Shown in pieces: positions 10,743-53,896 of a stretch of 61,651 nucleotides of DNA; positions within the stretch are counted from its first letter, which is position 1; the number at the start of each line of letters is the position of its first letter. The notes beneath the pieces are model-generated. The model ran no database searches. It was not told where the DNA came from and worked only from the letters and a program-made list of their open reading frames with translations. The position numbers and the translations under genes were made by a program. The stretch spans positions 1 through 61,651 of the forward strand of contig JAAYVG010000046.1 of assembly GCA_012517285.1 (NCBI GenBank). Direction: 5' to 3'. This DNA comes from Elusimicrobiota bacterium (lineage in GTDB: Bacteria; Elusimicrobiota; Elusimicrobia; Elusimicrobiales; UBA9959).

Positions 10743-10835
10743 ATTTTGTAAAATAGTAGTAGTAAATATTGATCTGTTCGTTTTCTGATTTTATTAATGT
10801 TTTTATGAGGCATATCTTTTTGCTCTGGAGAAAAT

Positions 10836-12086: not shown

Positions 12087-12096
12087 AGAGATATTT

Positions 12097-33549: not shown

Positions 33550-33680
33550 AAATAATTGAATATTTTATGCAATAATTTTTAAACAAAATCGTTATTATAA
33601 TAGAAGGTAGCTTTTTGCTTAAAAATATTTTTTTATTTTTTTGTGCTGTTTGGCTAATAGTATGCTACCGGAGGTGAATG

Positions 33681-34949
33681 ATGAGAAAGTTTTTTATTTT
33701 TTTAACTGTGGTCGTATCACTTTTTGTTTCATTTTCTTCTTATGCTGCTGAGCTCAGCCTTGATGATTGTATAAAACTTACATTTGAGAACAACCCTTCG
33801 CTTAAGGCTCAGCTCAATGATCTTGAGGCTGCAAAGTACTCATATCTTACCTCACTGAATTCATATCTGCCAAAGGTAAATCTTTCGCATAGCTTTTCAA
33901 AATCAGGTGGTGATGGACGGGATACATCCAGCAACTTTTCTCTTTCAGCGAGCGTATCTCAGAATATATTTGATTATAGCTCTATTTCAAACATAAGGAC
34001 ATCAAAGCTCAGCTATGAAATGCAGCAGATCAACTACGAAAACTATCTGGTTGGTTTGAGACAGGATTTATACAATGCCTTTTTCACACTTCTTTTTGCC
34101 CAAGAATATGTTAAGGTCAATGAAAACATAGTAAACATCAGAAAAAACAATGCAGATCTTATAACGCTTAAGTATCAGAGTGGTTTTGAGTCAAAGGGTG
34201 ATATGCTTTATGCTGTGGCACAGTATGAGATGTCCAAGCTAAACCTCAGTAAGGCAAAAAGACAGCTGAGGATTTCATCAAACAATCTTAAAAGTATTAT
34301 GGGCGTTAGTATGAATGATGATATAACGTTAAAGTATGCTATCAATATAGATTCTAATCCTCTTGAGCTTTCAGACATAGAATCCTATGTGAGATCCAAC
34401 CCGAAGTACAAAAATTATCAGAAGAGCATAATGCTTGCTGAAGAAAAATTAAAGAATTCTGAAAATGAATGGTTTCCCAAATTAACATTTTCGGCCTCTG
34501 ATGGATTGTCTGGCAAATCTGAATTTCCTGATAACAATTCATGGTCTGTTGGTTTGAGTTTAAGTATGCCAATCTTTTCATCAGGTGTTACATATCATAA
34601 GAATAATAAAAGCATGTTGGAGGAAAGCCTTAAATCCACTCAGGAGGAGCTAAACGCTTATGTGATCACGCTTTCAAACAGTATCAAGAGCAGTTATGAG
34701 GAATATATAAATTCCATAGATACCGCAAATACATATAAGGTTCTGCTTGCTGCAAATGAAGAAAGATATAAAGAAGCTGAGGTTAAATATATGGCAGGAA
34801 AGATGAGTTATATAGATCTTGAGAATATTGAACAGAATCTTATAGATTCTAACCAGAATTATAACAATTATTTACAGAATGTTTATTTAAAAAAAGTCGC
34901 TTTTGAAAGTTTGTTAAACAAAAAGTTATCTAAAATAGAAGAGAGATGA
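33681..34949 (+). CDS. tolC: TolC-family outer-membrane efflux protein
   Basis: 422 residues with a signal peptide ending near SYAAE. Two OEP repeats of long helices and short beta segments follow (ENNPSLKAQLNDLEAAKYSY; second repeat SNPKYKNYQKSIMLAEEKLKNS). It forms the outer-membrane duct of tripartite pumps. GGAGG at 33670-33674 fits this ATG better than the adjacent one at 33678. First gene of the efflux operon. Confidence 0.92.
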   Translation: MRKFFIFLTVVVSLFVSFSSYAAELSLDDCIKLTFENNPSLKAQLNDLEAAKYSYLTSLNSYLPKVNLSHSFSKSGGDGRDTSSNFSLSASVSQNIFDYSSISNIRTSKLSYEMQQINYENYLVGLRQDLYNAFFTLLFAQEYVKVNENIVNIRKNNADLITLKYQSGFESKGDMLYAVAQYEMSKLNLSKAKRQLRISSNNLKSIMGVSMNDDITLKYAINIDSNPLELSDIESYVRSNPKYKNYQKSIMLAEEKLKNSENEWFPKLTFSASDGLSGKSEFPDNNSWSVGLSLSMPIFSSGVTYHKNNKSMLEESLKSTQEELNAYVITLSNSIKSSYEEYINSIDTANTYKVLLAANEERYKEAEVKYMAGKMSYIDLENIEQNLIDSNQNYNNYLQNVYLKKVAFESLLNKKLSKIEER

Positions 34950-35063
34950 CAGAAAACAGAAGACAGATAACAGAAAACAGAGGACGGAAGACAGAAGTCA
35001 GATTTTAAAGGAACTCCATTCTGTCCTCTGTCTTCTGACCTCTGTCCTCTGACTTCTGTCCTT
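34949..35063. repeat. Purine/pyrimidine inverted repeat inside the efflux operon
   Basis: A run of ACAGAAAACAGAAGACAG-type units is followed, after ATTTTAAAGGAACTCCA, by its complementary run of TCTGTCCTCTGTCTTCTG. The RNA could fold into a long hairpin between tolC and the adaptor gene. The same unit occurs at about 23425-23457 and 58912-58946. It leaves the adaptor ribosome site GGAGG (35066-35070) free. Confidence 0.7.
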
Positions 35064-35074
35064 TTGGAGGAATG

Positions 35075-36052
35075 ATGAAAAAAACAATAATAATTTTGAG
35101 CGTTCTGGTAGTTGCTGGAGGTATATATTTTTTAACCAGAAGCAAATCTAAAACTGAGGAAAATGTTTACAGCGAGCTGACTGTATCATTTCAAAGAGTA
35201 AATGAGTATGTGGAGACTACCGGTGAGGTCGACCCTTTAAACCGTGTTGAGATACTTCCACCATCCTCAGGAAGGATAGAAAAGATATTTGTTGAAGAGG
35301 GTGCTACTGTTAACACTGGTGATGTTCTCTGTCTTATGAGTTCATCGGACAGGGTTGCTATAATAGATGCTGCAAGATCTATAAGCGACAGTGAATATAA
35401 AAAGTGGGAGGATTCATATAAGCCAATAAAGGTTTTAGCCCCTATAAGCGGAAGGATAATATTAAGAAATATTGTTGAAGGGCAAACTGTCGGGGCATCA
35501 ACAGTTTTGTTTGCTATGTCTGATACACTTATTGTTGTGGCAGATGTGGATGAATCAGATATTGGCAAGGTTAGAGTTGGTCAGACTGCTCTGATAACCC
35601 TTGACTCATATCCTGATACCCAGATAAGAGGGAAAATTTTTCAGATACTTGATGAGGGGAAAAATGTTAGCAACGTGATAATCTATAAGGTAAAGATAAG
35701 GCTTGATAAAATTCCATCATTTTTAAAATCACAGATGACCTGCAACATCAAAATATCAGCAGATAGCAAAAAGATTTTAGCAATTCCAATGAATGCTATA
35801 GAGTATTCAAAGGATGGCAATGTTTATGTGATAACAGGCTTTGATAGCAAAAACAATCCGATAAAGAAGAAGATATCAGTTGGTAAAACTTATGAAAACC
35901 TTATTGAAATAACCAAAGGACTTAAGGATGGAGATGTTATATATCAAAAGGTAACAAAGTATTTAAAACAGAATGTTGACAATGGAACAAATCCGTTTAT
36001 GCCTCAGAGGAGTAAGAACACAAATAGACAACAGCGTAGGGCAGGAGTTTAA
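35075..36052 (+). CDS. macA: MacA/HlyD-type periplasmic adaptor with a very short hairpin
   Basis: 325 residues with an N-terminal membrane anchor (about 4-22). A lipoyl/barrel-sandwich domain is split by a very short segment (AARSISDSEYKKWEDSYKP) where MacA normally has a long alpha-hairpin. Beta-barrel and membrane-proximal domains follow. It links the inner-membrane pump to the TolC-like duct. The basic, Asn/Gln-rich tail (about 305-325) is unusual. The start at 35075 suits the GGAGG spacing; the ATG three bases earlier is an alternative. Confidence 0.85.
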   Translation: MKKTIIILSVLVVAGGIYFLTRSKSKTEENVYSELTVSFQRVNEYVETTGEVDPLNRVEILPPSSGRIEKIFVEEGATVNTGDVLCLMSSSDRVAIIDAARSISDSEYKKWEDSYKPIKVLAPISGRIILRNIVEGQTVGASTVLFAMSDTLIVVADVDESDIGKVRVGQTALITLDSYPDTQIRGKIFQILDEGKNVSNVIIYKVKIRLDKIPSFLKSQMTCNIKISADSKKILAIPMNAIEYSKDGNVYVITGFDSKNNPIKKKISVGKTYENLIEITKGLKDGDVIYQKVTKYLKQNVDNGTNPFMPQRSKNTNRQQRRAGV

Positions 36053-36102
36053 AATAAGTACGATTCAAATCAATCAAGTGGCGAAATAATGATGGAGAGA
36101 AG

Positions 36103-38040
36103 ATGATAAAACTTTCAAAGATAAGAAAAGTTTACAAGATGGGTGAGGAGTTGGAGGTCTTAAAGGGAGTTGATCTTGAAATAAAAGAGGGTGAGTTTGT
36201 TGCAATAATGGGGCCAAGTGGTTCTGGCAAATCAACGCTGATGCATATAATAGGTTTTCTTGACAGACCAACAAGCGGTAAGTATGAAATACTTCAAAGA
36301 GATGTTACAAACCTTTCTGACAGCGAGTTAGCATACCTCAGGTCAAGGGTTATAGGATTTGTCTTTCAGCAGTTCAATCTCCTTTCAAAGCTTACAGCCC
36401 TCGACAATGTATGTTTGCCGCAGATATATCTGGATAAGATAAATCCCGAAAGAGGAAAACAACTCCTTGAAAAGGTTGGTTTGGGAAATAGAATGAATCA
36501 CAGGCCAAACCAGCTCTCTGGCGGTCAGCAGCAGAGGGTGGCTATAGCAAGGGCACTTATAAACGATCCTCTTGTGGTACTGGCAGATGAACCTACAGGA
36601 AATTTGGCGAGCGATCAGTCCAAAGAGATAATGGATATCTTTACAAAGCTTAATGATGAGGGCAAGACTGTTATAATAGTAACCCACGAACCTGATATAG
36701 CAGCGTTTGCCAAAAGGGTTATAAAGATAAGGGATGGAAACATATATGAGGATATCATAAATAGAAAATCCGAATTTAAAAACAATGTGGCCAAAATTGA
36801 ACTTAAAAAATCAAAGTTTAATATTCAAGAGTTTATTGAAAACACAAAAACCTCATTTAAATCAATAATATCAAACAAGGTTAGATCATTTCTTACAATG
36901 CTTGGAATAATAATAGGGGTCGCTTCCCTTATTGCTATGCTTGCTGTTGGATATGGTGCTCAAAAATCAATTCAGGCAAGCCTCTCATCGCTTGGTTCAA
37001 ATCTTTTAATGGTATTTCCGGCAAGAGTAAGATCAGGTGGAGTCAGTGGTCAAAGAGGTGATGTATCAAGATTGAGAATAGAGTATGCAGAAACGTTAAA
37101 GCAAAAACTTCCATATATAAAAAACTATGATGTAAACGTTAATGGACGGGTTCAGGCAGTTTATAAGGATCAAAATACCAACACATCCGTTATAGGAACA
37201 ACACCAAACTATGCCACAATGCGAAATGCTGTTCCATACTATGGAAGATTTTTCACGAAGAGTGAGGATAATTCATTGAGAAGGGTTTGCGTCTTAGGAC
37301 AGACTGTTGTCAATGATATCTTTGGTGATGAGGATCCAATAGGAAAAGAAATAAAAATAAATAGAAAGAATTTTACTGTTATAGGAATATTGCCTCAAAA
37401 GGGAGCAAGTGGCATGAATGATCAGGATGATGTTATAATTGTTCCCGTTAACACAGCAATGAAAATACTTTTGGGCAGGGATTATGTTAATCAGATATGG
37501 GTTGAGGTTGAGTCTGCTGATTATATAGATAGAGCTATGGAAGATATTGTTAAGGTCATGAGAGATGTTATGAACACACCATCTTACAAGGATGATCCTG
37601 TGAGTGTGTTTAATCCATCTGATATAAAAGATATGTTGAATCAGACGACACAAACATTCAGTTTGCTGCTGGGCATAATAGCAGGGATATCACTAATAGT
37701 TGGTGGAATAGGGATAATGAACATAATGCTTGTTAGTGTTGTTGAAAGAACAAAAGAGATTGGACTTAGAAAAGCAATAGGAGCGACAAAAAGGGCTGTG
37801 CTCTGGCAGTTTCTAATAGAGGCTGTGATAGTTTCTGTTGCAGGCGGCATCATAGGTATAATTTTTGGCAGTGCTACATCAATGGTTCTCGGAAAGGTTA
37901 CAAAATGGAGCATATACATACCACCTGTGGCTATAATAATGTCTTTTTCATTTTCAGTTATTGTTGGAGTGGTTTTTGGATTTTGGCCAGCGAAAAAAGC
38001 AAGCGACTTAGAACCAATAGAAGCACTAAGATACGAATAA
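36103..38040 (+). CDS. macB: MacB-type ABC transporter (ATPase fused to FtsX-like permease)
   Basis: 645 residues. The N-terminal ATPase has Walker A GPSGSGKST (about residues 39-47), signature LSGGQQQR and Walker B VVLADEPTG. The C-terminal half has a first membrane span (about 265-285), a periplasmic domain of roughly 220 residues, and three more spans ending at the GFWPAKKAS motif typical of MacB/LolE. MacB-type pumps act mechanically on periplasmic substrates (macrolides, toxins, lipopeptides) with an adaptor and TolC, both encoded just upstream. Confidence 0.94.
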   Translation: MIKLSKIRKVYKMGEELEVLKGVDLEIKEGEFVAIMGPSGSGKSTLMHIIGFLDRPTSGKYEILQRDVTNLSDSELAYLRSRVIGFVFQQFNLLSKLTALDNVCLPQIYLDKINPERGKQLLEKVGLGNRMNHRPNQLSGGQQQRVAIARALINDPLVVLADEPTGNLASDQSKEIMDIFTKLNDEGKTVIIVTHEPDIAAFAKRVIKIRDGNIYEDIINRKSEFKNNVAKIELKKSKFNIQEFIENTKTSFKSIISNKVRSFLTMLGIIIGVASLIAMLAVGYGAQKSIQASLSSLGSNLLMVFPARVRSGGVSGQRGDVSRLRIEYAETLKQKLPYIKNYDVNVNGRVQAVYKDQNTNTSVIGTTPNYATMRNAVPYYGRFFTKSEDNSLRRVCVLGQTVVNDIFGDEDPIGKEIKINRKNFTVIGILPQKGASGMNDQDDVIIVPVNTAMKILLGRDYVNQIWVEVESADYIDRAMEDIVKVMRDVMNTPSYKDDPVSVFNPSDIKDMLNQTTQTFSLLLGIIAGISLIVGGIGIMNIMLVSVVERTKEIGLRKAIGATKRAVLWQFLIEAVIVSVAGGIIGIIFGSATSMVLGKVTKWSIYIPPVAIIMSFSFSVIVGVVFGFWPAKKASDLEPIEALRYE

Positions 38041-38133
38041 AAGATTTTTGTGAGCAGTCAGTTATAAAGACTGGTTATTCCTTTTTTGAAATAGCTTCAT
38101 TCTTCTTTCCTTTTAATTTTATTAAAATATATT

Positions 38134-39189
38134 ATGAGTGAAAATTCACCTCTTAAATGGATAGCATTTGAAACCACAAAAAGATGCAATCTTAACTGCG
38201 TTCACTGCAGATCAAAAAATACTGATTTAAAATACAAAGATATAGACAAGAAAAATGTTTTTTTACTGATGGAGAGGGTGGCTGAGTTTTCAAAACCAGT
38301 TTTTGTTCTTTCAGGTGGTGAGCCACTTCTAAGAAGCGATATATTTGAAATAGCCTCATACGGTAATGGTTTGGGTTTTAAAATGGCTATGGCAACGAAT
38401 GGTATGCTTATAAATGATGATATTTGTAAAAAAATCAATGAAAGTGGAATAAGAATATGCTCAATCAGTCTTGATGGTTCAAACAGTGATATTCACGACA
38501 GCTTCAGGCGGCAGCACGGAAGCTTTGATGGAGTGGTCAAAGCCACAGAAATCTTTAAACGGCACAACATACCATTCATAATAAACTCATCATTTACAAA
38601 AAAGAATCAGTCTGATATAGAAAACACATACAGACTTGCAAAAAAATTAGGTGCATCAGCATGGTATATGTTTATAGTTCTTCCTGTTGGCAATGCCAAA
38701 GATGATATGGAAGAGATAATAACAAAAGAAGATTATGAAAAAATACTTGAGTGGCATTTTGATATGGAGATATCAGAAAAGGATATGAAGGTAAGACCAA
38801 CCTGTGCCCCATCATACTACAGAATTTTTGCTGAGAAGGCAAAAAAACTTGGCAAAAACTTAGAAAGACGAAACCTCTCATTTTCACCAGATGGTTCAAA
38901 GGGATGTGTAGCTGCTGAATCCATAGCATACATAGATGCATATGGAAACTTCTATCCTTGCAGTTATTTTTCACAATCTGCTGGAAACATATTTGAAAAA
39001 AGCGTTAAAGAACTCTGGAACTCAGAGATATTTTCATCAATCAGAGACACGTCAAAATACATTGGCGACTGTGGGGTCTGTGAGTATAAAAAAATATGCC
39101 AAGGATGTAGAGTAAGATCTGCTGTTTATAATGGTAACTATCTCTCAAAAGACCCGTTCTGTGATTACAAACCCAAAAATAATCATTGA
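38134..39189 (+). CDS. Radical SAM/SPASM protein, AhbD/NirJ-like
   Basis: 351 residues. The radical SAM cluster motif is C18-NLN-C22-VH-C25, followed by SGGEPLL. The segment with PTCAPSYYR and a later GC..A / YPCSYF region resembles AhbC/AhbD/NirJ enzymes that modify heme or siroheme side chains. The C-terminal SPASM cysteines are CGVC...C..C...C. The window also encodes a hem operon with hemH and hemG, so its exact role (heme, heme d1 or a peptide) is open. It stands alone between the efflux and sulfur operons. Confidence 0.75.
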   Translation: MSENSPLKWIAFETTKRCNLNCVHCRSKNTDLKYKDIDKKNVFLLMERVAEFSKPVFVLSGGEPLLRSDIFEIASYGNGLGFKMAMATNGMLINDDICKKINESGIRICSISLDGSNSDIHDSFRRQHGSFDGVVKATEIFKRHNIPFIINSSFTKKNQSDIENTYRLAKKLGASAWYMFIVLPVGNAKDDMEEIITKEDYEKILEWHFDMEISEKDMKVRPTCAPSYYRIFAEKAKKLGKNLERRNLSFSPDGSKGCVAAESIAYIDAYGNFYPCSYFSQSAGNIFEKSVKELWNSEIFSSIRDTSKYIGDCGVCEYKKICQGCRVRSAVYNGNYLSKDPFCDYKPKNNH

Positions 39190-39314: not shown

Positions 39315-39349
39315 TTGACAGATTGTTTAGTATTTGCTAAACTACTAAA
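39315..39349 (+). promoter_or_regulatory. Promoter and operator of the sulfur operon
   Basis: TTGACA (39315-39320), a 17-base spacer, and TAAACT (39338-39343) preceded by TGC (extended -10). A perfect inverted repeat TTTAGTA-N10-TACTAAA (39326-39349) covers the spacer and the -10 box. A dimeric ArsR regulator bound there would block RNA polymerase. The ATG at 39351 follows the -10 by only seven bases, so the regulator mRNA would be leaderless. Confidence 0.7.
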
Positions 39350-39350
39350 T

Positions 39351-39659
39351 ATGATAAGAAAACAGAAAAATTTTGAAGAGGCAAAAAAGGTGTCTGAAAT
39401 ATTTGACTGCCTTTCATCAACGATAAGGCTGTTAATTGTTTGCTCTCTCATTGATGGAGAAAAAAGTGTCGGTGAAATAGTTGATATCACTGGCACTACA
39501 AAGGGTAATATATCTCAGCATTTAAGAATACTTGAAGATAACGACATAATCACTGGAAAAAAAGATGGTAATAGGATCTTTTATTCAATAAAGGATAAGC
39601 GAATAAAAGAATTAATAAAAAGAGTGAAAAAACTTTTTTGTGCAGATATAGATTTATAA
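39351..39659 (+). CDS. ArsR-family regulator, SqrR/BigR-like persulfide sensor candidate
   Basis: 102 residues with a winged helix (recognition helix about 50-63, TTKGNISQHLRILE). Cysteines are at 20, 31 and 97. C31 lies in RLLIVCSLIDGEKSVGE and C97 in KKLFCADI, 66 residues apart. This matches, in context and spacing, the two cysteines that form a polysulfide bridge in SqrR/BigR-type sensors. The start is moved from an upstream in-frame codon to the ATG at 39351, because the promoter lies in the longer reading. It probably represses itself and the downstream operon until sulfane sulfur appears. Confidence 0.85.
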   Translation: MIRKQKNFEEAKKVSEIFDCLSSTIRLLIVCSLIDGEKSVGEIVDITGTTKGNISQHLRILEDNDIITGKKDGNRIFYSIKDKRIKELIKRVKKLFCADIDL

Positions 39660-39704
39660 CAAGGTTTTTTATACAAAAATTAGTTAATTTTTGAGGAGGA
39701 GATT

Positions 39705-39950
39705 ATGGATCTTAATTCTTTAAAACCAGCAAAGGTTGTTGATGCAAGAAGTATGGCGTGCCCTGGTCCGCTTCTTGAGGCAAAAAAAGGAATAGCATCA
39801 GTTAAAGTTGGAGAAATTCTTGAAATACAATCTGGCGATCAGGGATCAAGGGAGGATCTCCCTGCATGGTGTAGCAAAACTGGTCATGAGTATTTGGGTT
39901 TTTTAGAAAAAGATGGTTATGATGCTCATTATTTGATTCGAAAAAAATAA
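39705..39950 (+). CDS. tusA: TusA-family sulfur carrier protein
   Basis: 81 residues. The family motif C19-P-G-P carries the persulfide-bearing cysteine at the start of the first helix. The rest follows the TusA beta-alpha-beta-alpha-beta-beta fold. A second cysteine (PAWCSKTGH) is common in the family. It shuttles sulfane sulfur between enzymes in the cytoplasm. A very strong site GAGGAGGAG precedes the ATG. One base separates it from the next gene. Confidence 0.94.
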   Translation: MDLNSLKPAKVVDARSMACPGPLLEAKKGIASVKVGEILEIQSGDQGSREDLPAWCSKTGHEYLGFLEKDGYDAHYLIRKK

Positions 39951-39951
39951 A

Positions 39952-40338
39952 ATGCAGCAGAATAATAAATCAAAGATTCTTATCATAGCTACAAATCACA
40001 GCTCATATCCCGGAGCCAATGCTGTTGGTCAGGCTCATATCTCATATCCATCAAACACATATATAATAAGGGTTCCAGATCCTGTTATGTTTCCTGAGGA
40101 TTTTTATATCAATTCTTTTAAAAAGGGAATTTCAGGAATAATAATAATGTCAAGTGGATCTGACTGCCCTTACGAAGGTGCATATAAGAGGCTTTCAAAA
40201 AGAATTGAGAATGTTTATATAAAAATGAAAGAACTTAATATTAGCACTGAAAGATTAAGGCTTACAACGATATGCACGGTTTGTCGTGAGGCTTTTATAA
40301 AAGAAATATCTGATATGGAGAGGATTGTCTCAAAATGA
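39952..40338 (+). CDS. Stand-alone MvhD/FlpD-like protein with lost iron-sulfur ligands
   Basis: 128 residues. The pattern KILIIATNHSSYPGAN ... YPSNTYIIRV ... GISGIII ... ERLRL matches the MvhD/FlpD family, which binds a [2Fe-2S] cluster and passes electrons to HdrA; sulfate reducers carry it as the C-terminal part of QmoB. Four of the usual cysteine positions are replaced here (T14, S17, D43, S67/S68). Only the DC72 position is kept. A CxxC (C108, C111) appears near the end. It may be structural, or handle sulfur rather than carry a cluster. It overlaps qmoA by 4 bases. Confidence 0.75.
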   Translation: MQQNNKSKILIIATNHSSYPGANAVGQAHISYPSNTYIIRVPDPVMFPEDFYINSFKKGISGIIIMSSGSDCPYEGAYKRLSKRIENVYIKMKELNISTERLRLTTICTVCREAFIKEISDMERIVSK

Positions 40339-41627
40339 AAGAAATTAATATTGATGTTGCTGTCATAGGAAGCGGTATAGCAGGGCTTGAGGCCTCGCTT
40401 GATGTGGCTGATGCAGGATACAAAGTTGCTCTGATTGAAAAATCTCCAAGCATAGGTGGAAGGATGATATCGCTGAGCAAGGTTTTTCCCACACTTGATT
40501 GTGCAAGCTGTATAACAACACCAAAGATGGCTGCTGTGTCTCATCACCCATTCATAAATATGATGACATATACAGAGGTTAGGGAGATAAAGAAAAATGA
40601 TGATGGGTTTGATTTGTATGCTATTAAAAAGCCAAGGTATATTAATGAGGGTGAGTGCATATCCTGCAAAAAGTGTGAGGAGGTTTGCCCTGTATATATA
40701 GAGGATGATTTTGAGCATGAGCTTAGTCCTAAAAAGGCGATTTCTATTCCTTTTACAAATGCAGTTCCACAGTTGCCGGTGCTTGATATGAATAAGTGTA
40801 TAAGATGTGGAGCATGCGCAAGGATATGTCCAAAGGATTGTATAGATTATTTGCAGAAAGCTGAAGAAATACATATAAAAGCTCATTCCGTTATCATATC
40901 AACCGGCTATGATATAACACCTATGAATGCTAAGAAGGAATACAATGCTATATCAATACCAAATGTTATATCGCCGCTTCAAATGGAAAGGCTTTTGGCA
41001 CCACATGGACCCTACGGAAAGGTTATAAGGCCTTCTGATGGAAAGATACCTGAGTCAATAGCCTATGTCCAGTGTGCTGGTTCAAGGGATAAGAGCATAG
41101 GAGTGCCATACTGTTCAAGGGTATGCTGTATGTATGCTATAAAGCAGGCCATGCTTTTGAGTGGCTCACTTCCGCTTGCAGATATAACAATTTATTATAT
41201 GGATATAAGAGCATTCGGTAAGGGATATGAGGAGTTTTATTCCGAGGCAAGAGCGATGGGAATAAATTTTGTTAAGGCAAAGGTGGCAAGGATTACTGCT
41301 GATGAAAAAGGTTCTCCAGTTTTGAGGATTGAACATCAGGAAGAAGCTTCAAAACCAAAAGAGATAAAACATGACCTTGTTGTTCTTTCTCAGGGAATGA
41401 TTCCTGCAGTAAGAGATTTTTTAGGACTTGATTTAGAAATAAATGAATATGGATTTGTAAGCTCAAGAGATAAGACTTTAAATCCCTCTCAAACAAATAT
41501 TGATGGGGTTTTTGTTTGCGGGGTGGCTCGTGGACCAAAGGATATACCTGATACAATAGCTGATGCAGGTTCAGCAGCAGTTTCTGCTGTAAATTATATA
41601 AAGTCAATCAAAGGGAAATCTTTATGA
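40335..41627 (+). CDS. qmoA: QmoA/HdrA-like FAD iron-sulfur protein
   Basis: 430 residues. An FAD loop is at about 9-18 (AVIGSGIAGLEA). The HdrA signature FPTLDC56ASC59ITTPKM follows. Two inserted [4Fe-4S] ferredoxin motifs use C108/C111/C114/C118 and C155/C158/C161/C165, and further thioredoxin-reductase-type segments include CAGSRDK and ICSR/CCMYA-like motifs. It lacks the N-terminal HdrA domain, as QmoA does. In Qmo complexes this subunit mediates electron transfer between the quinone pool and a sulfur-oxidising or reducing partner. Four-base overlaps on both sides place it in one operon. Confidence 0.88.
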   Translation: MKEINIDVAVIGSGIAGLEASLDVADAGYKVALIEKSPSIGGRMISLSKVFPTLDCASCITTPKMAAVSHHPFINMMTYTEVREIKKNDDGFDLYAIKKPRYINEGECISCKKCEEVCPVYIEDDFEHELSPKKAISIPFTNAVPQLPVLDMNKCIRCGACARICPKDCIDYLQKAEEIHIKAHSVIISTGYDITPMNAKKEYNAISIPNVISPLQMERLLAPHGPYGKVIRPSDGKIPESIAYVQCAGSRDKSIGVPYCSRVCCMYAIKQAMLLSGSLPLADITIYYMDIRAFGKGYEEFYSEARAMGINFVKAKVARITADEKGSPVLRIEHQEEASKPKEIKHDLVVLSQGMIPAVRDFLGLDLEINEYGFVSSRDKTLNPSQTNIDGVFVCGVARGPKDIPDTIADAGSAAVSAVNYIKSIKGKSL

Positions 41628-43405
41628 GTGATAATAATCTGAATGAAGCTCAAAAAAGGGTTGGTGTTTATGTCTGCCACTGCGGTGGAAATATATCAGA
41701 TGTTGTTGATATAAAAAAGATTGTTGATGAAATCTCAAAATATCATAGTGTTGTTGTGGCAAGGGATTATGTTTTTATGTGTTCATCAAATGGACAGTCA
41801 CTAATCGAGGATGATATAAAAAACATGGGGATAAACAGGATTGTTGTTGCTGCCTGTATGCCATCGCTCCATGAACTAACATTTAGAAATGCTATTCAAA
41901 GGGCAGGACTTAATCCTTATCTTTATGAACATATAAACATAAGGGAACAGGTCAGCTGGGTTCATAAGGATAATCCTCAAGGGGCCACATCAAAGGCGAT
42001 ATTGCTTATAAAAGCTGGAGTTGAAAAGGTTTTGATGCAAGATCCCCTTAATGCTATCAGGGTTAATGCCGAGCACAGAGTGTTGATTATTGGTGGTGGA
42101 ATAAGCGGTATGAGGGCAGCCGTATCATCAGCTGATAATGGGATTGAGGTTGTTATTGTAGAGAAAGAAAAAAAGCTTGGTGGAAAATTGAACAGGGATG
42201 GATATGTCTATCCTTCAGATGAAAAAGCTGTTGATATAGTTAATAAGTTTTCTAAAAAGATTTTGTCAAATCCACTAATAAAGGTTTATACAGAGTCAGA
42301 GATAATTAATATTGGTGGCTATGTCGGAAACTTTGATATAAAAATAAAAAAAACTGATGGTGATATAGACAATATAAAAGCAGGAAGTATTATAGTTGCT
42401 ACAGGTTTTGATCACTACATGCCATATGATGGAGAATACGGATATAAAAAGTCTGATTATGTGCTAAGGCTTAAAGAGTTTATAGAACTTCTTTCAAAAT
42501 CTGATGGTTTGGAATTTGTTTTTAAAGGTAAGAAAATAAACAGTATAGGATTTATTCACTGTGTTGGATCGAGACAGAACGAAGGAATTGATGCCCCTCA
42601 GGCAGATGGCAAGGTAAATGAATACTGTTCACGGGTATGCTGTACATCTGGAATTTATACAATGAATAAGCTTAAAGAAAAATTTCCTGATGTCAATGTT
42701 TATGATGTGTATGCTGATATAAGGACATATGGAATGGAGTCAGAATCATTATATGAAATAGCATCAAAGCACGATGTCATATTTTTTAGAAGGCCACTTG
42801 ATGAAAGACCGCAGATAACATTTGAAGGTGATAAAATAAAGATAACAACAACTGATATACTTAGCTTTAATGAAAGGTTGGAGATGGAAGTTGATATGCT
42901 TGTTCTGCTTACAGGGATGAAACCTTCTGAGATTGATGATATCTCTGGATATCTCAAGCTTTCAAAAAGCACAAACAGATTTTTACAAGAAGTTCATCCC
43001 AAACTTCGTCCTGTTGAGATGAATATCAATGGTGTCTTTGCAGCAGGAACATCCCTTTCACCTATGGATATAACAGAATCATTGCAATCAGCACAAACGG
43101 CTGCAATGAAATCAGCTATACTGCTTTCAAATCCTGATATACCACTTGATCCATTTGTCGCTGTGGTTGATGAAGAGAGATGCACTGGGTGTGGAAGATG
43201 TGTTGAGGAATGTTTATATTCTGGTGCCGTTACTATTACAGAAAAAACCATAGATGGAAATATTAAAAAGGTTGCATATGTTAATCCTGCAATGTGTAAG
43301 GGTTGCGGGGCCTGTGTCGCTGTTTGCAGTGAGAGAGCAATAGATTTAAATGGTTCAAGGCTTTCACAGTTTGAGGCTATGATAGATGCCATAGTTAAGG
43401 AGTGA
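41624..43405 (+). CDS. qmoB: QmoB/HdrA-like FAD iron-sulfur protein without MvhD domain
   Basis: 593 residues. The N-terminal HdrA domain begins VGVYVCHCGGN (C18, C20). An FAD domain starts near residue 149 (VLIIGGGISGM), and two C-terminal [4Fe-4S] motifs use C520/C523/C526/C530 and C558/C561/C564/C568. The protein ends just after these. The MvhD-like extension found in QmoB of sulfate reducers is absent and instead appears as the separate protein at 39952-40338. HdrA-type subunits can bifurcate electrons; whether this one does is unknown. Confidence 0.87.
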   Translation: MSDNNLNEAQKRVGVYVCHCGGNISDVVDIKKIVDEISKYHSVVVARDYVFMCSSNGQSLIEDDIKNMGINRIVVAACMPSLHELTFRNAIQRAGLNPYLYEHINIREQVSWVHKDNPQGATSKAILLIKAGVEKVLMQDPLNAIRVNAEHRVLIIGGGISGMRAAVSSADNGIEVVIVEKEKKLGGKLNRDGYVYPSDEKAVDIVNKFSKKILSNPLIKVYTESEIINIGGYVGNFDIKIKKTDGDIDNIKAGSIIVATGFDHYMPYDGEYGYKKSDYVLRLKEFIELLSKSDGLEFVFKGKKINSIGFIHCVGSRQNEGIDAPQADGKVNEYCSRVCCTSGIYTMNKLKEKFPDVNVYDVYADIRTYGMESESLYEIASKHDVIFFRRPLDERPQITFEGDKIKITTTDILSFNERLEMEVDMLVLLTGMKPSEIDDISGYLKLSKSTNRFLQEVHPKLRPVEMNINGVFAAGTSLSPMDITESLQSAQTAAMKSAILLSNPDIPLDPFVAVVDEERCTGCGRCVEECLYSGAVTITEKTIDGNIKKVAYVNPAMCKGCGACVAVCSERAIDLNGSRLSQFEAMIDAIVKE

Positions 43406-43407
43406 TT

Positions 43408-43701
43408 ATGGGTTCTGATAGAGATAACAGGATCAAACAACAGCTTGAAATACTTAATGATGAAATTGGGCCTGTATCAAGGACACTGATTGATTATTCA
43501 GCAAAAACAAACAGACTTTTTAACAATGTTTTAAATAGTATTAAAGTTGAGCCTAAGGACATAGTTCAGATATCCGATGAAACTGGATTGGATTCTAAAA
43601 AGGTTTTATGGATACTGGCTGGGCTTGTTAAATATGGAAAAGCTGAGCAAATATCTAACAAAAGTGGCTATATGAAATACAGAGCCAAACAAGAAAAATA
43701 A
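43408..43701 (+). CDS. Small probable winged-helix protein inside the qmo-like operon
   Basis: 97 residues. A helical N-terminal half (1-50) is followed by a likely winged helix (about 50-95: DIVQISDETGLDSKKVLWILAGLVKYGKAEQ). AAGGAG precedes the ATG at 43408. It lies two bases after qmoB and two before qmoC, so it is made with the complex. It has no cysteine and no obvious cofactor site. It might be an assembly factor, a structural subunit or a second regulator. Confidence 0.65.
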   Translation: MGSDRDNRIKQQLEILNDEIGPVSRTLIDYSAKTNRLFNNVLNSIKVEPKDIVQISDETGLDSKKVLWILAGLVKYGKAEQISNKSGYMKYRAKQEK

Positions 43702-43703
43702 AA

Positions 43704-44792
43704 ATGACAAAAAAAGTAAATCCAAAGCTTTTAAAAGAAATAAAAAAATATGGAGCATTTGATATATCTGCGTGCTTTAACTGTGGAAACTGTAGTGCAG
43801 TATGCCCTTTATCAAAGGAAGAACTATCATTTCCGAGGGTGATGATAAGACATGCTCAGATAGGTGATAAACAATCTATACTATCATCGCTTGAACCATG
43901 GATGTGCTATTACTGTGGCGAGTGTTCATCAACCTGTCCGAGGGATGCATCGCCAGGTGAATTTATGATGAGCTTGAGAAGATATCTTATATCGGAGTAT
44001 GATATCACAGGTATATCAAAGATATTTTATAGATTTCCATACATACAGAACATATTTGTGATTTTTATATTTGCCATAGCTCTCATAACTTTTTTAAAAT
44101 TTAATGGTGACTTTGGAAGTCTTGCAGCTAAGATAGAGCTTGTTTTTCCTTTTTATATAACGCTTTATATAATCTCATACCTGTTTATAATGTATAAAAA
44201 AACTATTTTGGATAGGTTAAAAAAATTTGTTGTTTCTTTAAATCCTTCAAATATAAAAAATATGATAGTTCATGGGTTTACTCAGAAAAACTTTATAGCA
44301 TGCTCTGAGAAGGATTATGTAAGATGGTTCAGTCATCTATTGGTTATGAGCGGATATATATTAACGCTTATAATCTCAAATCTTCATATCCTTGAACCTT
44401 TAAAAAAGCAATATTTACTTTTTACTCCACTCTCTGTGCTTATCTATTATTCATCGCTTTCACTTATTGCTGGAGGGTCTGTTATGATTTTTAGAAGATT
44501 GTTTAAAAAGGGACAATCATCAAAGTTTTCACATTCAACAGACTGGCTTTTTGTTATTATGCTTTTTTTGATAGGCCTTTCTCTCTTTCTGACATACACA
44601 TCAAACATAGTTTTTGGAGCTGATAGCAATCTTCTTGAGATTATTTACAAAATAAACATTGCAATTGAAATTTCATGGATATTAATTGTTGTCCCATTTA
44701 CTAAGTGGATACATATGTTTTTTAGACCTTTTGCAATATATTTAAATGGACTTAAAAAAGAAAATTCTCAAGTTATTGTGGAGGAGATATGA
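43704..44792 (+). CDS. qmoC: QmoC-like membrane iron-sulfur protein (HdrC-HdrE fusion)
   Basis: 362 residues. The N-terminal HdrC-type domain has two [4Fe-4S] motifs (C24/C27/C30/C34 and C68/C71/C74/C78). The C-terminal membrane domain has about six spans from residue 107 on, of the HdrE/NarI type that binds heme b and exchanges electrons with quinones. The layout is that of QmoC. No HdrB (CCG-domain) subunit is encoded, so a soluble heterodisulfide site is lacking. It overlaps dsrE2 by 4 bases. Confidence 0.88.
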   Translation: MTKKVNPKLLKEIKKYGAFDISACFNCGNCSAVCPLSKEELSFPRVMIRHAQIGDKQSILSSLEPWMCYYCGECSSTCPRDASPGEFMMSLRRYLISEYDITGISKIFYRFPYIQNIFVIFIFAIALITFLKFNGDFGSLAAKIELVFPFYITLYIISYLFIMYKKTILDRLKKFVVSLNPSNIKNMIVHGFTQKNFIACSEKDYVRWFSHLLVMSGYILTLIISNLHILEPLKKQYLLFTPLSVLIYYSSLSLIAGGSVMIFRRLFKKGQSSKFSHSTDWLFVIMLFLIGLSLFLTYTSNIVFGADSNLLEIIYKINIAIEISWILIVVPFTKWIHMFFRPFAIYLNGLKKENSQVIVEEI

Positions 44793-45340
44793 GTGATATA
44801 AAAGATCTCGAAAAACAAATAGATGAATTGAAAAAGGAAATATATGAATTGAAGGCAAATGCTCCCAAGGACCAGCTTTCAATGATATTAATGAGTGGTG
44901 ATATGGATAAACTTATAGCAGCCTTGATAATAGCCACAGGGGCAGCTGCAATGTATGAGAGAGTTGTTATATTTGCAACATTTTGGGGTATATCATTTTT
45001 TAAAGATCCTGATAAAAAGATTAAGAAGGATATGATATCAAAGGCATTTGAGATTATGCTCCCTAAACACACAAAAGGCTTAAAGCTATCAAAAATGAAT
45101 ATGTTTGGTGTTGGTCCTGTTATGATAAAATCTATTATGAAAAAAAATAATGTTAAAACTCTATCAGAATTAATCAAACTTGCGGGTGATATGGGAGTGG
45201 AGATTTATCTCTGTCAGATGTCTATGGATCTTATGGGCTATAAATGGAATGAGATTATAAAATATCCAAACATTAAATCAGCAGGAGTTGGAAAGTTTTT
45301 GTCTGAAGCTGGCCAGAGTCGTGTCACCCTTTTTATATAA
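44789..45340 (+). CDS. dsrE2: DsrE2-like sulfur-transfer protein
   Basis: 183 residues. An N-terminal coiled coil (about 4-24) precedes a DsrE/F-like domain with the family segments SGDMDKLIAALIIATGAA, ATFWGISF and SKMNMFGVG. The active cysteine C142 lies in LCQMSMDLMG. DsrE-type proteins relay persulfide sulfur to or from TusA. The last gene of the operon, so the sulfur carriers TusA and DsrE2 bracket the redox subunits. Confidence 0.92.
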   Translation: MSDIKDLEKQIDELKKEIYELKANAPKDQLSMILMSGDMDKLIAALIIATGAAAMYERVVIFATFWGISFFKDPDKKIKKDMISKAFEIMLPKHTKGLKLSKMNMFGVGPVMIKSIMKKNNVKTLSELIKLAGDMGVEIYLCQMSMDLMGYKWNEIIKYPNIKSAGVGKFLSEAGQSRVTLFI

Positions 45341-46909: not shown

Positions 46910-47126
46910 AATTATAGACATTCCGGATTTCGGTCAGGTTATTTTTGATTTGATGATACATGTTATAGTTAGATTATATTTGATTTGATTCGGCAGATTT
47001 TCTTTTATTAATAAATTTATATATAATTTAGTTTGTAATATATTGATTGCTCTTTTTTACGGGCGTAGTCCCAAGTCCGCCGAAGATATATCAGCAAAGT
47101 GGCGAATAGCCACAGTTGTTTTGATG

Positions 47127-47295
47127 ACCTGCCCGCCGATGGGCAGGCGGGTATGTTTATCGTAGGTGGAAAAGCACACCCACCGTCGTTTGACATGCCG
47201 TCAAAAAGGCAGCGACTATTCGTCGCCTGCCTGCGCCGAAATGGCTTCGGCAGGCAGGCCTGTCTGCGCCAAAGCAGCTTCGGCAGGCAGGTATT
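47127..47295. repeat. Cluster of GC-rich GCAGGCAGGC palindromes; gap 46625-47380
   Basis: Several units such as CCTGCCTGCGCCGAAATGGC with complementary CTTCGGCAGGCAGGC lie close together, far richer in GC than the surroundings. Short open frames on both strands here are products of the repeat. Apart from this cluster, the remnant at 46771-46909 and the direct repeat, the 756-base gap holds nothing recognisable. Confidence 0.7.
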
Positions 47296-47344
47296 GACGG
47301 TATAACTTTCAGCGGGCATGCTCGCTTTGCTGACGTTTTGGGTG

Positions 47345-47373
47345 TTGGCATTCGTGATTTAATGAAATAAAAT
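47345..47373 (+). promoter_or_regulatory. Predicted leaderless promoter of the nuclease-like gene
   Basis: TTGGCA (47345-47350), a 17-base spacer, and TAAAAT (47368-47373), then seven bases to the ATG at 47381. No ribosome site is present. Confidence 0.6.
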
Positions 47374-49460: not shown

Positions 49461-50441
49461 ATGATTTACGATATATTGAATGGCAAAAAAACAAAAACTC
49501 CTGTGTGGTTTATGAGGCAGGCTGGAAGGTATATGGCATCATACAGGGCTCTCAAAGAAAAATATGATTTTGTTACAATGTGCTTAATCCCCGAGATTTC
49601 AGCAGAGGTTGCTATTATGCCTGTGAGGGAGTTTGGTTTTGATGCTGCAATATTTTTTTCTGATATACTTATACCGTTTATTAAATCTGATATTGATCTC
49701 AAATACAAACCGGGACCGGTTATTGGAAAGGAGATTAAAAACAAGAATGACTTTAATAATTTAAAGGTTTGTGAGGTTGGCGATTTTGATTTTGCCTCAA
49801 AGGCGATAAAGATTCTTGCTGCTGAGCTTTCGTCTGATAAGGATCTTATAGGTTTTGTTGGCTCACCATTTACTATTGCATACTATCTTCTTAATGGCGA
49901 TATAAAGCGTTTAACTGATTTAAAGGATGAAGGGCTTTTTGACGAGTTTATGGAGAAGGTAACACTTAACATATTAAATTTTGCAAAGGCTCAGATAGAT
50001 GGCGGTGCAAGGATAATTCAGATATTTGATACAAAGGCATATCTTTTGCCAGAGGATGATTACAGAATTTTTTCACTTCCCTATGCAAAAAAATTAAATG
50101 ATGAGATAAAAAAATATGGGGCAAAGACAATATATTTTTTTCTGGGAGGACTTGGACTATCAAAGGCTGCTCTCGAGGTTGGGGCTGATTGTTTTTCGGT
50201 TGATTCGTCTGCCACAATATCTGAGTTTGCTGATGTTTTTAAAAATTTACCGCTTCAAGGAAATTTAGCACCTGATGCACTTTTAGTCGATAAAAAGGAT
50301 ATAGAGAGAAGGATAAAAAGTATAGTTGACGAGGGAAGGAATATAAACGGACATATATTTAATCTCGGACACGGGCTTCTTAAAGAAACAACTGAGTCAA
50401 ATGTCGCCTTTGCGGTTGATTTGGTTCATAGATACAGATAA
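49461..50441 (+). CDS. hemE: Uroporphyrinogen decarboxylase
   Basis: 326 residues, converts uroporphyrinogen III to coproporphyrinogen III. The N-terminal signature FMRQAGRYM (R19, R23 region) binds substrate carboxylates, and D68 in FFSDIL is the catalytic Asp. The C-terminal FNLGHGL segment is also present. Slightly shorter than the usual 340-355. First gene of the hem operon; one base separates it from hemH. Confidence 0.96.
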   Translation: MIYDILNGKKTKTPVWFMRQAGRYMASYRALKEKYDFVTMCLIPEISAEVAIMPVREFGFDAAIFFSDILIPFIKSDIDLKYKPGPVIGKEIKNKNDFNNLKVCEVGDFDFASKAIKILAAELSSDKDLIGFVGSPFTIAYYLLNGDIKRLTDLKDEGLFDEFMEKVTLNILNFAKAQIDGGARIIQIFDTKAYLLPEDDYRIFSLPYAKKLNDEIKKYGAKTIYFFLGGLGLSKAALEVGADCFSVDSSATISEFADVFKNLPLQGNLAPDALLVDKKDIERRIKSIVDEGRNINGHIFNLGHGLLKETTESNVAFAVDLVHRYR

Positions 50442-50442
50442 T

Positions 50443-51312
50443 ATGAAAAGGATTTTGATAACTCATATGGGCGTTCCTGATAATCCAAGCGAGGTTAAGG
50501 AATATCTTTTTAATATATTTTCTGATGATGCTATGATGTTACTCCCATTTCAAAAGACTATGGCAGAGATTATATCAACGCTTAGGGCAAAAAAATCGAC
50601 TCAAAGATATAACAGCATAGGATGGACACCGCTTAGGAGATACACCGATGAGATTGTGGAAAAGCTTTTGAAAAAATTTAAGTATGATAATATCTTAATA
50701 AAAGCAGCATACACTCACTCAAAGCCTTACATATATGATGAGCCACCTGATTCACTTATATTTCCACTCTATCCAGAGTATTCCATCTCGCTTTTCGGGC
50801 CTATAAAAAAGAGGATGAAAAATCCAATGATATTGAGGGAGTGGTATTATGAACCAGAGTTTATAGATGTTTTTTCAGAGCGAATAAAACTAACACTCCA
50901 AGGTCTTTTGCCACAAAAAACTGCACTTCTTTTTTTAGCTCACGGAGTTCCATCATCGCTTAAAAAGAAGGGCGATCTCTATGAGGATGAGGTTAAGGAA
51001 AGCTATGAGATTTTTAGAAAAAGGTTTGCTGATTATAAAAGTTTTTTGGGATATATAGGCAAGGTCGGGCCTGCAAAGTGGAGCAGGCCGTATGCAGATG
51101 AGCTTGTTTATATGATTAAAGGATATGATAATGTGGTTGCAGTTTTTTTAAGTTTTCCAGTGGACAATCTTGAGGTTTTATATGATATAGATATAGTTTT
51201 AAAACAGAAGGCAGAAAAAGCAGGAATAAAAAATTTTTTAAGAGCTCCGCTCTTAAACGCTGATGATGATTTCATTGAAGCACTTTATAAAATAATAAGG
51301 AGAAGATTATGA
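50443..51312 (+). CDS. hemH: Ferrochelatase
   Basis: 289 residues. The start is placed at the ATG one base after the hemE stop; the longer reading lies inside hemE. The invariant His is H167 in LFLAHGVPSS. The C-terminal metal-path motif, normally S/A-D-H-x-E-x-L-Y-E/D, reads V-D-N242-L-E244-V-L-Y-D: the Glu is kept, but the His is Asn. It inserts iron into proto- or coproporphyrin. Which porphyrin is used cannot be told from sequence. Confidence 0.9.
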   Translation: MKRILITHMGVPDNPSEVKEYLFNIFSDDAMMLLPFQKTMAEIISTLRAKKSTQRYNSIGWTPLRRYTDEIVEKLLKKFKYDNILIKAAYTHSKPYIYDEPPDSLIFPLYPEYSISLFGPIKKRMKNPMILREWYYEPEFIDVFSERIKLTLQGLLPQKTALLFLAHGVPSSLKKKGDLYEDEVKESYEIFRKRFADYKSFLGYIGKVGPAKWSRPYADELVYMIKGYDNVVAVFLSFPVDNLEVLYDIDIVLKQKAEKAGIKNFLRAPLLNADDDFIEALYKIIRRRL

Positions 51313-52637
51313 AGATAGCTGTCATAGGTGGCGGTGTGTCAGGGCTTGTCTCTGCTTATCTCATATCAAAAGAGTCAGAGAAAAGAGGGATTAAGGCATC
51401 AATAAAGCTTTTTGAAAAGGAATCAAGATGTGGTGGAACAATATCAAGCACTACAAAGGATGGATTTACTGTTGAAAGCGGACCAAATGGTTTCCTTGAC
51501 AGCAAAAAGGAGACTTTAGAGCTTATAAAAAGTGCAGGGCTTGGTAGCGAGCTTCTCCCATCAAGTAGAGAAAGCGAGCTCAGGTTTGTTTATGATGGCA
51601 AAAAGCTATGGAAGGTTCCTGAAAAGCCGATTGAGTTTGCATTCAGCGGGCTTATAACACCATTAGGAAAGGCAAGGATTTTATCAGAGATATTTATAAA
51701 AAAAAGTGATATACCTGATGAAACTGTTGGCGATTTTGTTAGGCGAAGGTTAGGGCGTGAGGCAGCAGAAAAGCTAATAGACCCGATGATAAGGGGGATA
51801 TATGCAGGGAATCTTGATGAGCTTGATTTAGATTTTGCATTTCATCGGATGAAGGAGCTTGAGCGGGATTACGGCTCACTTTTTAAGGCGATGTTTAAAC
51901 TCAAAAAAGGTGGCCCACCGCCAGGACATCTTACATCGTTTAGAAATGGTATGCAAGAGCTTATAGATACGATTGAAAAAATTGGCGGTTTTGAGGTGAT
52001 AAAAAATTTTGAGATTAAAGAGGTTCTAAAAAATGGTGATATGTGGCGGATTAAGGCAGAAAATTATGATGAGGATTTTGATAAGATCGTTTTCACACTC
52101 CCTGCATATGCACTTGCAAAAATATTCAAGCCTGTTTCAAAATACGCAGAAAGGATATCATATCAACCAATATGTGTTGTCCATCTCGGATATGAGGAGA
52201 AGCTTCTTGAAAAAAAGCCTCAGGGATTTGGCTTTATAACCCTTGAGAAAGCAAAGCTTAAGATATTAGGAACGATATTTTCATCAAATATATTTTCAAA
52301 CAGAGCCCCAAAAGGGATGATGCTGCTTTCGTCTATGGTTGGAGGAGCGTTTAATAAAGATGTTTTGAATATGAGTGATGATGAGGTTATAAATTATACT
52401 GTTAATGAGGTTTCTAGGATATTTAAGTCAAATGGAAAGCCCTCTTTTATATCGTTCAAGAGGCACATAAGAGCAATACCGAACTACAACCTTGAATCAA
52501 AGAATATGAAGAAACTTATCATAGATGAGCTTAAAAAAGAAAAAGGGCTTTATTTAGGTGGGAATGCTTTTTTTGGTATAGGCGTAAATGATACAATTAA
52601 AAGAGCATACGAGCTTTCATCAGAGGTTTTTATATGA
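51309..52637 (+). CDS. hemG: HemG/HemY-type protoporphyrinogen (or coproporphyrinogen) oxidase
   Basis: 442 residues. The FAD loop G7-GGVS-G12 and the motif FEKESRCGGTISS follow the amine-oxidase fold of HemY. The C-terminal segment LYLGGNAFFGIGVNDTIKRA closes the FAD site. This soluble or membrane-associated oxidase uses oxygen or another acceptor. It overlaps hemH and hemA by 4 bases each, so all are co-translated. Confidence 0.93.
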   Translation: MKIAVIGGGVSGLVSAYLISKESEKRGIKASIKLFEKESRCGGTISSTTKDGFTVESGPNGFLDSKKETLELIKSAGLGSELLPSSRESELRFVYDGKKLWKVPEKPIEFAFSGLITPLGKARILSEIFIKKSDIPDETVGDFVRRRLGREAAEKLIDPMIRGIYAGNLDELDLDFAFHRMKELERDYGSLFKAMFKLKKGGPPPGHLTSFRNGMQELIDTIEKIGGFEVIKNFEIKEVLKNGDMWRIKAENYDEDFDKIVFTLPAYALAKIFKPVSKYAERISYQPICVVHLGYEEKLLEKKPQGFGFITLEKAKLKILGTIFSSNIFSNRAPKGMMLLSSMVGGAFNKDVLNMSDDEVINYTVNEVSRIFKSNGKPSFISFKRHIRAIPNYNLESKNMKKLIIDELKKEKGLYLGGNAFFGIGVNDTIKRAYELSSEVFI

Positions 52638-53896
52638 GAAGATTGAATGTCTTAGGGATAAGCCATAAGAGGGTTAATCAGGAGAATCTTTCAAAGTTTC
52701 ATATCAATGAAAAAGAAATCCCTGAGCTTTTGAAAAAAATTACTTCAATAAACGGCATCGATGAAGCAATGATACTTTCAACCTGCAACAGAACGGAGAT
52801 ATATTTTGTAACATCAAACAGAAGGATTGATAACAAATACATCTCTGATCTCATAATGAAAGAATTGGGGTTTTATAACGATAGTATGCTTTTTTACCAT
52901 TATGATGGTAAAAAAGCTGTTAGGCATATTTTTAGTGTTGCATCGTCGCTTGATTCTATGGTCGTTGGTGAGAATGAGATAACAGGCCAGTTTAAAAAGG
53001 CATTTGATACTGCTGTTAAAAGTGGGACTGTAAAAAAGATTTTATACTTTGTTTTCAGAGAGGCTATGGTAACAGTTAAAAGGGTACAGCACACGAGCGA
53101 TATATCAAAGGGAACTGTATCAGTTGGACGAACAGCTGTTATGGAGATGAGGAGAATATTTAAAGATATTTATGATAAAAAAATTCTTGTTGTTGGTGCT
53201 GGTTATATGGCAGAGCTTGTTTTAAGAGTTCTCATTGAAAATGGGGCAGAAAGGGTTTTTATTTCAAACAGAACATATGAAAAGGCAAAAAAACTCTCAG
53301 AAAAGTATGGATTTGAAACATTTGATTTCAATCTTTTAAATGAAAGTATAGCTGAATTTGATGCAGTATTTCTTGCAACATCATCATCAAAACCTTTGCT
53401 CCATTACCACAACATCAAGGACAGCATCTCAAAAATTAATAAAAAACTTTATCTGGTTGATATATCACTCCCACCCAATGTTGAAGTGAAAATAAAAAAT
53501 ATAAAAAATGTGGTTCTTATGAATATGGACTATTTCAAAAAGCTTACAAAGAAAAATATAAATGCAAGAAGGGAAAATATGAGGGTGGCATCATCAATAA
53601 TAGATGATAGTGTTATAAAGTTTGAAAACGATTTTGCGTTTAACGAGATAATACCGCTTTTTGAGATGATGAAAAAAAAGGCGATAGAATTTTCTGAAAA
53701 TGAGCTTGCTAAAACAGTAAGGATGAATAAGATTGATTTAAAAACAGAGCAGGTTATGAGAAATTATAACACAATGCTTATAGACAAACTGATAAAAAGG
53801 CATATGTCAATGGTTAAAAATCTTATGGGAATGAAAAAAATGAAAAGCGATTCTTTTGCTGATATGATAGAGATGATTATAAAAACTTATGAATAA
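52634..53896 (+). CDS. hemA: Glutamyl-tRNA reductase
   Basis: 420 residues, the first committed step of the C5 pathway. The active-site Cys51 lies in STCNRTEIYF, followed by SSLDSMVVGENEI. The NADPH domain has the loop VVGAGYMAELV, and a C-terminal dimerisation helix ends the protein. It shows that the organism makes 5-aminolevulinate from glutamyl-tRNA. hemL and hemB are not in the window. Confidence 0.97.
   Translation: MRRLNVLGISHKRVNQENLSKFHINEKEIPELLKKITSINGIDEAMILSTCNRTEIYFVTSNRRIDNKYISDLIMKELGFYNDSMLFYHYDGKKAVRHIFSVASSLDSMVVGENEITGQFKKAFDTAVKSGTVKKILYFVFREAMVTVKRVQHTSDISKGTVSVGRTAVMEMRRIFKDIYDKKILVVGAGYMAELVLRVLIENGAERVFISNRTYEKAKKLSEKYGFETFDFNLLNESIAEFDAVFLATSSSKPLLHYHNIKDSISKINKKLYLVDISLPPNVEVKIKNIKNVVLMNMDYFKKLTKKNINARRENMRVASSIIDDSVIKFENDFAFNEIIPLFEMMKKKAIEFSENELAKTVRMNKIDLKTEQVMRNYNTMLIDKLIKRHMSMVKNLMGMKKMKSDSFADMIEMIIKTYE

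Follow-up and report, generated by a model that had tools for sequence, protein, structure and literature searches.

A TusA- and DsrE-linked, Qmo-like operon as a candidate sulfane-sulfur:quinone oxidoreductase of an Elusimicrobiota bacterium

An eight-gene operon of sulfur carriers and electron-transfer subunits

Within a 61,651-nucleotide stretch of DNA from an Elusimicrobiota bacterium (GenBank assembly GCA_012517285.1, contig JAAYVG010000046.1), referred to here as the window, positions 39351–45340 carry eight genes that all run in one direction on the forward strand, each with an intact open reading frame (ORF). In order, they encode an ArsR-family repressor, the sulfur carrier TusA, an FlpD/MvhD-like protein, QmoA-like and QmoB-like subunits, a small winged-helix (wHTH) protein, a QmoC-like membrane subunit and the sulfur carrier DsrE2. 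We propose that this operon specifies a dedicated, persulfide-regulated sulfane-sulfur:quinone oxidoreductase working in the oxidative direction in its host, a reading to which, in this full form, we assign a probability of about one half. That sulfane sulfur is the substrate, whichever direction the electrons take, is probable. The proposal draws on features supported by sequence, namely gene content, cofactor and carrier motifs, co-conservation, an ancestry apart from that of canonical Qmo, the putative operator, the missing apr, sat and dsr genes, and the presence of CydAB.

The genes are closely packed. TusA starts at position 39705, after a gap of 45 bases from the end of ArsR at 39659; the spacing is 1 base between TusA and FlpD and 2 bases between wHTH and QmoC, and the FlpD/QmoA, QmoA/QmoB and QmoC/DsrE2 junctions are 4-base overlaps. 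This make-up, with its range of junctions, is as described in an earlier model-generated reading of the stretch (the original prediction). TusA (39705–39950; PF01206, 71 bits) contains the CPGP motif, in which Cys19 is invariant among 79 sequences. At the other end of the operon, DsrE2 (44789–45340; PF13686, 152 bits) has an equally invariant cysteine, Cys142, in 42 sequences, and shows one hydropathy peak resembling a membrane helix.

Conservation across phyla

In a scan of GTDB genomes with a QmoA alignment, the best 80 of 439 relatives were retained. As the loci were picked on similarity to QmoA, and not on TusA or DsrE, linkage to the carriers is not built into the sample. Of the 80 loci, 78 have a detected TusA, and every one of the 53 that could be tested has a DsrE or DsrE2 gene nearby, so the tie between carriers and complex that had been predicted from the window was seen wherever it was examined. 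The core TusA–FlpD–QmoA–QmoB–wHTH–QmoC is complete and ordered in 56 of the 59 loci with room for it, and the same gene order recurs in at least ten further Elusimicrobiota genomes, one of them of the same genus; because of this recurrence, the operon is neither a chance arrangement nor an artefact. Pairwise distances covary among the six core proteins (r of 0.84 for QmoA–QmoB, 0.69 for TusA–FlpD and 0.61 for TusA–QmoA). Judged by this co-conservation, the link to sulfur is strong.

The loci, most of which come from metagenome bins, carry the labels of more than a dozen phyla: Elusimicrobiota, Armatimonadota, Chloroflexota, Planctomycetota, Acidobacteriota, Actinomycetota, Myxococcota, Thermodesulfobacteriota, Spirochaetota, Bdellovibrionota, Krumholzibacteriota, Margulisiibacteriota, FCPU426 and Fibrobacteres. 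Among 341 Elusimicrobiota genomes, 23 have the operon's TusA (one of them, G020, counted on TusA alone), and all 23 belong to a single family. The gene combination, which the original prediction implied to be an odd one-off, is instead a widespread cassette that overlaps conceptually with the published 'type II Qmo' (PMC10504309).

A census of neighbouring genes puts the DsrE family first on either side, upstream and downstream, with a FadL-type outer-membrane protein second downstream. A FadL gene lies 3′ of the operon at most of the Elusimicrobiota loci and at some of those from Armatimonadota, though not in the window; its use as a sulfur importer was a guess that the one paper found on the matter does not bear out, and was set aside. 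Many Elusimicrobiota operons (loci L045–L060) have additional DsrE-like and CGGC-domain genes between QmoC and DsrE2. At locus L083, a 918-residue ORF (9947–12700) scores as QmoA and reaches the contig end, and may be a QmoA–QmoB fusion. Operons from bins labelled as Planctomycete or Margulisbacteria (L058, L043 and L044) nest among those of Elusimicrobiota, which may reflect gene transfer or mis-binning.

HdrA-type flavoproteins and a QmoC-like membrane subunit

The QmoA-like subunit (40335–41627; HdrA2, 469 bits) is of the HdrA type, composed of an FAD domain, two [4Fe-4S] ferredoxin motifs and the HdrA cysteine motifs. It scores 336–378 bits against HdrA proteins in the PDB, and every cluster cysteine is invariant among 80 sequences. 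The QmoB-like subunit (41624–43405; HdrA2, 485 bits), likewise of the HdrA type, begins with the N-terminal domain of HdrA and has two ferredoxin motifs in its C-terminal part, with most cluster cysteines invariant in 71 sequences. Encoded ahead of both is the FlpD/MvhD-like electron-transfer protein (39952–40338; PF02662, 64 bits), in which C72, C108 and C111 are kept in 92–100%. Canonical QmoB also matches the FlpD profile PF02662, which identifies the separate FlpD as the equivalent, in unfused form, of the C-terminal domain of QmoB; on this correspondence, the idea of an extra subunit or an added hydrogenase link was rejected.

The QmoC-like subunit (43704–44792; NF038018, 140 bits against a cut-off of 300) joins an HdrC-type dicluster domain, with invariant cysteines, to about six transmembrane helices, evident as six hydropathy peaks. 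Its residues H211 and H337 are invariant, as they are in canonical QmoC. In the predicted structure (pLDDT 89.5), the N-terminal part matches HdrC by Foldseek, and the same search gave no confident match for the membrane part.

Inserted between the QmoB and QmoC genes is that of the wHTH protein (43408–43701), modelled by AlphaFold2 with two long N-terminal helices (pLDDT 90.4). Translation may begin at GTG 43402 or ATG 43408, of which the ATG fits the orthologues better. The protein itself has no Pfam hit, 18 of its 44 homologues match HTH_20, and a Foldseek search with the model returned only generic, weak matches to ArsR/MarR folds (E above 0.001). Its position, which is fixed in all phyla, is as suggestive of a subunit or an assembly factor as it is of a regulator.

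Relation to canonical Qmo and to other sulfur systems

The subunit plan, with two HdrA-like flavoproteins, an MvhD/FlpD module and a QmoC that has an HdrC domain, membrane helices and the H211/H337 pair, is like that of QmoABC, and would suit an ordinary Qmo serving adenylylsulfate (APS) reductase. Phylogeny and gene content make that explanation barely tenable. The tree resolves the A subunits of the operon as one clade and the B subunits as another (SH-aLRT 100 each) and puts canonical QmoA and QmoB jointly in a separate clade (support 99); the operon's A subunit clusters with HdrA (support 92), and the B subunit falls outside canonical Qmo, its exact place depending on the root. The operon's QmoC misses the 300-bit equivalog test, and the best of 40 QmoC sequences of the family (E of 1.5e-65) is also read as below that cut-off. 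The operon differs further in its unfused FlpD, its TusA/DsrE linkage and a TLDCxxC motif where the canonical proteins have PKLCPPxCG.

Partner genes point the same way. The host genome, a 1.96 Mb draft in 52 contigs that is 97% complete, was probed with searches by single families. Nothing in it exceeds the AprA cut-off of 642 (a weak superfamily match reaches 25.6 bits), and there is no match to the ATP-sulfurylase family or to the NIR_SIR family of the DsrAB and AsrC sulfite reductases. No HdrB is recognised in the genome either, its sole CCG-domain protein being GlcF-like and adjoining a GlcD-like gene. AprA is above its cut-off in just 7 of 38 other carriers of the operon, with a split AprA in one more, and several of these carriers, for example the sulfate reducer Desulfospira joergensenii, hold a canonical aprBA–qmo locus besides the cassette. 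An ordinary Qmo was thus rejected on the missing genes, on the tree and on the presence of canonical apr–qmo in genomes that also have the cassette, with a reservation for the missing 3% of the draft. The absence of apr, sat, dsr and HdrB, stated for the operon in the original prediction, held for the genome in the family searches, as did its distinction from an ordinary Qmo: neither an apr–sat locus nor branching with the Qmo of sulfate reducers was found. Its naming of the subunits stands for the QmoABC-like plan and fails for descent, the 'QmoA' and 'QmoB' having their nearer relatives among HdrA-type proteins and not in canonical Qmo.

The nearest known system is the type II Qmo of Neukirchen et al. 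(2023, PMC10504309). As presented in the main text of that paper, its QmoA and QmoB are more akin to HdrA than they are to canonical Qmo, and a QmoC accompanies them; it is found with or without Apr and Dsr, for example in Ammonifex degensii and Vulcanisaeta moutnovskia, and its function is called unclear. The operon's A and B subunits also lean towards HdrA, a likeness of description and not of sequence comparison, and the main text makes no link to TusA, DsrE, an unfused FlpD or a winged-helix protein (PMC10504309). A literature search within CC-licensed PMC papers found no published description or function for the cassette.

TusA and a DsrE-family gene also characterize the YTD cluster of sulfur disproportionators, which is defined by YedE (PMC12998232). 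The Qmo-like complex is the operon's own, and no YedE-like gene is present in the operon, in an inspection of the locus and not of the genome.

Hdr-related proteins together with TusA/DsrE carriers are found in the sHdr system as well as here. The operon lacks HdrB but has a membrane subunit, and its A subunit is of the full-length HdrA type, scoring 378 bits to methanogen HdrA versus 136 to 6tjr, which we take to be an sHdrA. No gene for the lipoate-binding LbpA lies in the operon, the locus alone having been inspected for it. Identity with sHdr was rejected because HdrB is lacking. The lack of HdrB in operon and genome also makes it highly improbable that the complex is a partial sulfur oxidizer that, through an unrecognised catalytic subunit, converts carrier persulfide to sulfite as proposed for sHdr, although such a route would follow an older proposal for disproportionators, in which complexes of the Qmo/Hdr type take sulfane sulfur to sulfite (PMC4911364).

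A putative persulfide-responsive switch

The operon's first gene (39351–39659) encodes an ArsR-family repressor whose top PDB matches are BigR, YgaV and SqrR. It shares their ArsR fold, and its C30 and C96 (counted from residue 2) align with their conserved cysteine pair, one in the N-terminal part and one in the C-terminal helix, the arrangement expected of a BigR-type persulfide sensor. It differs from them in its target operon and in scoring 67 bits on the BigR model (cut-off 155). Both cysteines are invariant in 12 ArsR orthologues of the family, and the pair is kept in 25 of 46 ArsR proteins overall. Sensors of the BigR/SqrR type usually govern sulfide oxidation or detoxification.

Upstream of ArsR is the top match of a promoter scan, TTGACA-17-TAAACT (39315–39343, forward strand), and covering its −10 element is a palindrome, GTTTAG-TATTTG-CTAAAC (39325–39342, given without strand), that we regard as the putative operator on grounds of conservation. 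Promoter-like sites across the region total no more than expected by chance, so the weight here rests on conservation between genomes. Of the 24 loci whose ArsR scores higher, 20 have a TTTAG-N6-CTAAA palindrome 5′ of ArsR, among them loci from Spirochaetota, Bdellovibrionota and Fibrobacterota, and a palindrome of this type occurs at a single site in the entire window. Two loci (L070 and L087) have a tandem pair of GTTTAG-N-CTAAAC palindromes ahead of the ArsR start. The −10 element ends 7 bases ahead of the ArsR ATG (window 39338–39351), a distance short enough that transcription of ArsR may yield a leaderless message or begin within the annotated gene.

Proposed function

TusA and DsrE2 would deliver persulfide sulfur, on their invariant cysteines, to a cytoplasm-facing complex formed by FlpD, the two HdrA-type flavin/iron–sulfur subunits and the QmoC-like membrane subunit, the last of which would trade electrons with the quinone pool. 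ArsR is likely to detect persulfide or other reactive sulfur via its cysteine pair and to let go of the operator, so that the complex would be produced when reactive sulfur builds up. In the host, electrons from sulfide or persulfide would most likely pass through the complex to menaquinone, cytochrome bd and oxygen, and the sulfur would stay on the carriers after oxidation. The assembly of the complex, its substrate, direction, product, catalytic site and stoichiometry are inferred, as is what the winged-helix protein does. The suggestion, already made in the original prediction, that persulfide sulfur itself is the electron donor or acceptor is plausible but unproven.

The oxidative direction is favoured because CydAB (cytochrome bd) is encoded in the genome, because CydA is found some 5 kb 3′ of DsrE2, on the same strand, in the genome of the same genus, and because CydA and the operon are associated in the family, where CydA is present in 7 of 9 operon-bearing versus 3 of 14 operon-lacking genomes (Fisher p of 0.013, uncorrected for relatedness). 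Also encoded in the host genome are a MenA-like prenyltransferase, whose gene adjoins that of a polyprenyl synthase, and a single rhodanese that appears to have a signal peptide. By appearance, a haem biosynthesis cluster (hemE, hemH, hemG/Y-like, hemA, hemC and hemD) occupies 49461–55512, 4 kb downstream of the operon, and fits a haem-containing QmoC and cytochrome bd.

Electrons might instead run the other way, from quinol, or by confurcation with a low-potential donor via FlpD/HdrA, turning TusA/DsrE persulfide into sulfide in a cytoplasmic sulfur or polysulfide respiration. The HdrA-type subunits retain the Hdr cysteines and FAD folds, and the carriers of the operon include sulfate reducers that also hold canonical apr–qmo, both of which would suit reduction. 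We nevertheless consider it unlikely: the host has cytochrome bd and no PF00384 molybdopterin oxidoreductase, the kind of sensor that ArsR resembles speaks for oxidation or detoxification, and electron transfer from menaquinol to persulfide is energetically uphill unless there is bifurcation.

Several observations weigh against the oxidative sulfane-sulfur:quinone oxidoreductase. No catalytic site for persulfide has been recognised, there is no HdrB, and the flavin subunits might do nothing but carry electrons for another partner. Many operons elsewhere have different ArsR types or none. The futalosine-pathway proteins MqnA/D are absent from the host genome, in which the search of the classical menaquinone pathway extended only to the MenA-like/polyprenyl synthase pair. 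Oxygen respiration is not a given in the sulfate reducers and Anaerolineae that carry the operon, so that direction may vary by host. The want of a recognised persulfide-cleaving site would also be accounted for by a general ferredoxin/NADH:quinone complex, with TusA and DsrE merely supplying sulfur for iron–sulfur, tRNA or cofactor maturation; HdrA and FlpD modules do occur in many electron-transfer complexes. This is distinctly unlikely in view of the strict linkage to TusA/DsrE-family genes and the reactive-sulfur type of ArsR, which argue for sulfur as the substrate.

More broadly, and tentatively, the cassette may represent an undescribed respiratory complex, present in more than a dozen phyla, in which electrons flow directly between protein-bound persulfide (on TusA/DsrE) and the quinone pool through HdrA-type flavoproteins, with no involvement of HdrB, APS reductase or sulfite reductase, as a cytoplasmic counterpart of sulfide:quinone oxidoreductase. 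Its linkage to TusA/DsrE, its reactive-sulfur-type regulator and its conserved operator offer a concrete, testable substrate for HdrA-like Qmo that lack Apr and Dsr. If this is correct, genomes without dsr or apr, those of uncultured lineages included, would gain an unrecognised entry into the sulfur cycle, and surveys that count HdrA/QmoC matches as sulfate reduction would misread such genomes.

Surroundings of the operon

Directly 5′ of the operon (33678–39189) lies an efflux operon with TolC-, HlyD- and MacB-like genes, followed by a gene for a radical SAM/SPASM-like protein (38134–39189). Near the start of the window, positions 1443–2908 hold what appears to be an AbiEii/AbiEi-type toxin–antitoxin or abortive-infection pair. 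A short, GC-richer repeated sequence with repetitive ORFs on both strands spans 47017–47351.

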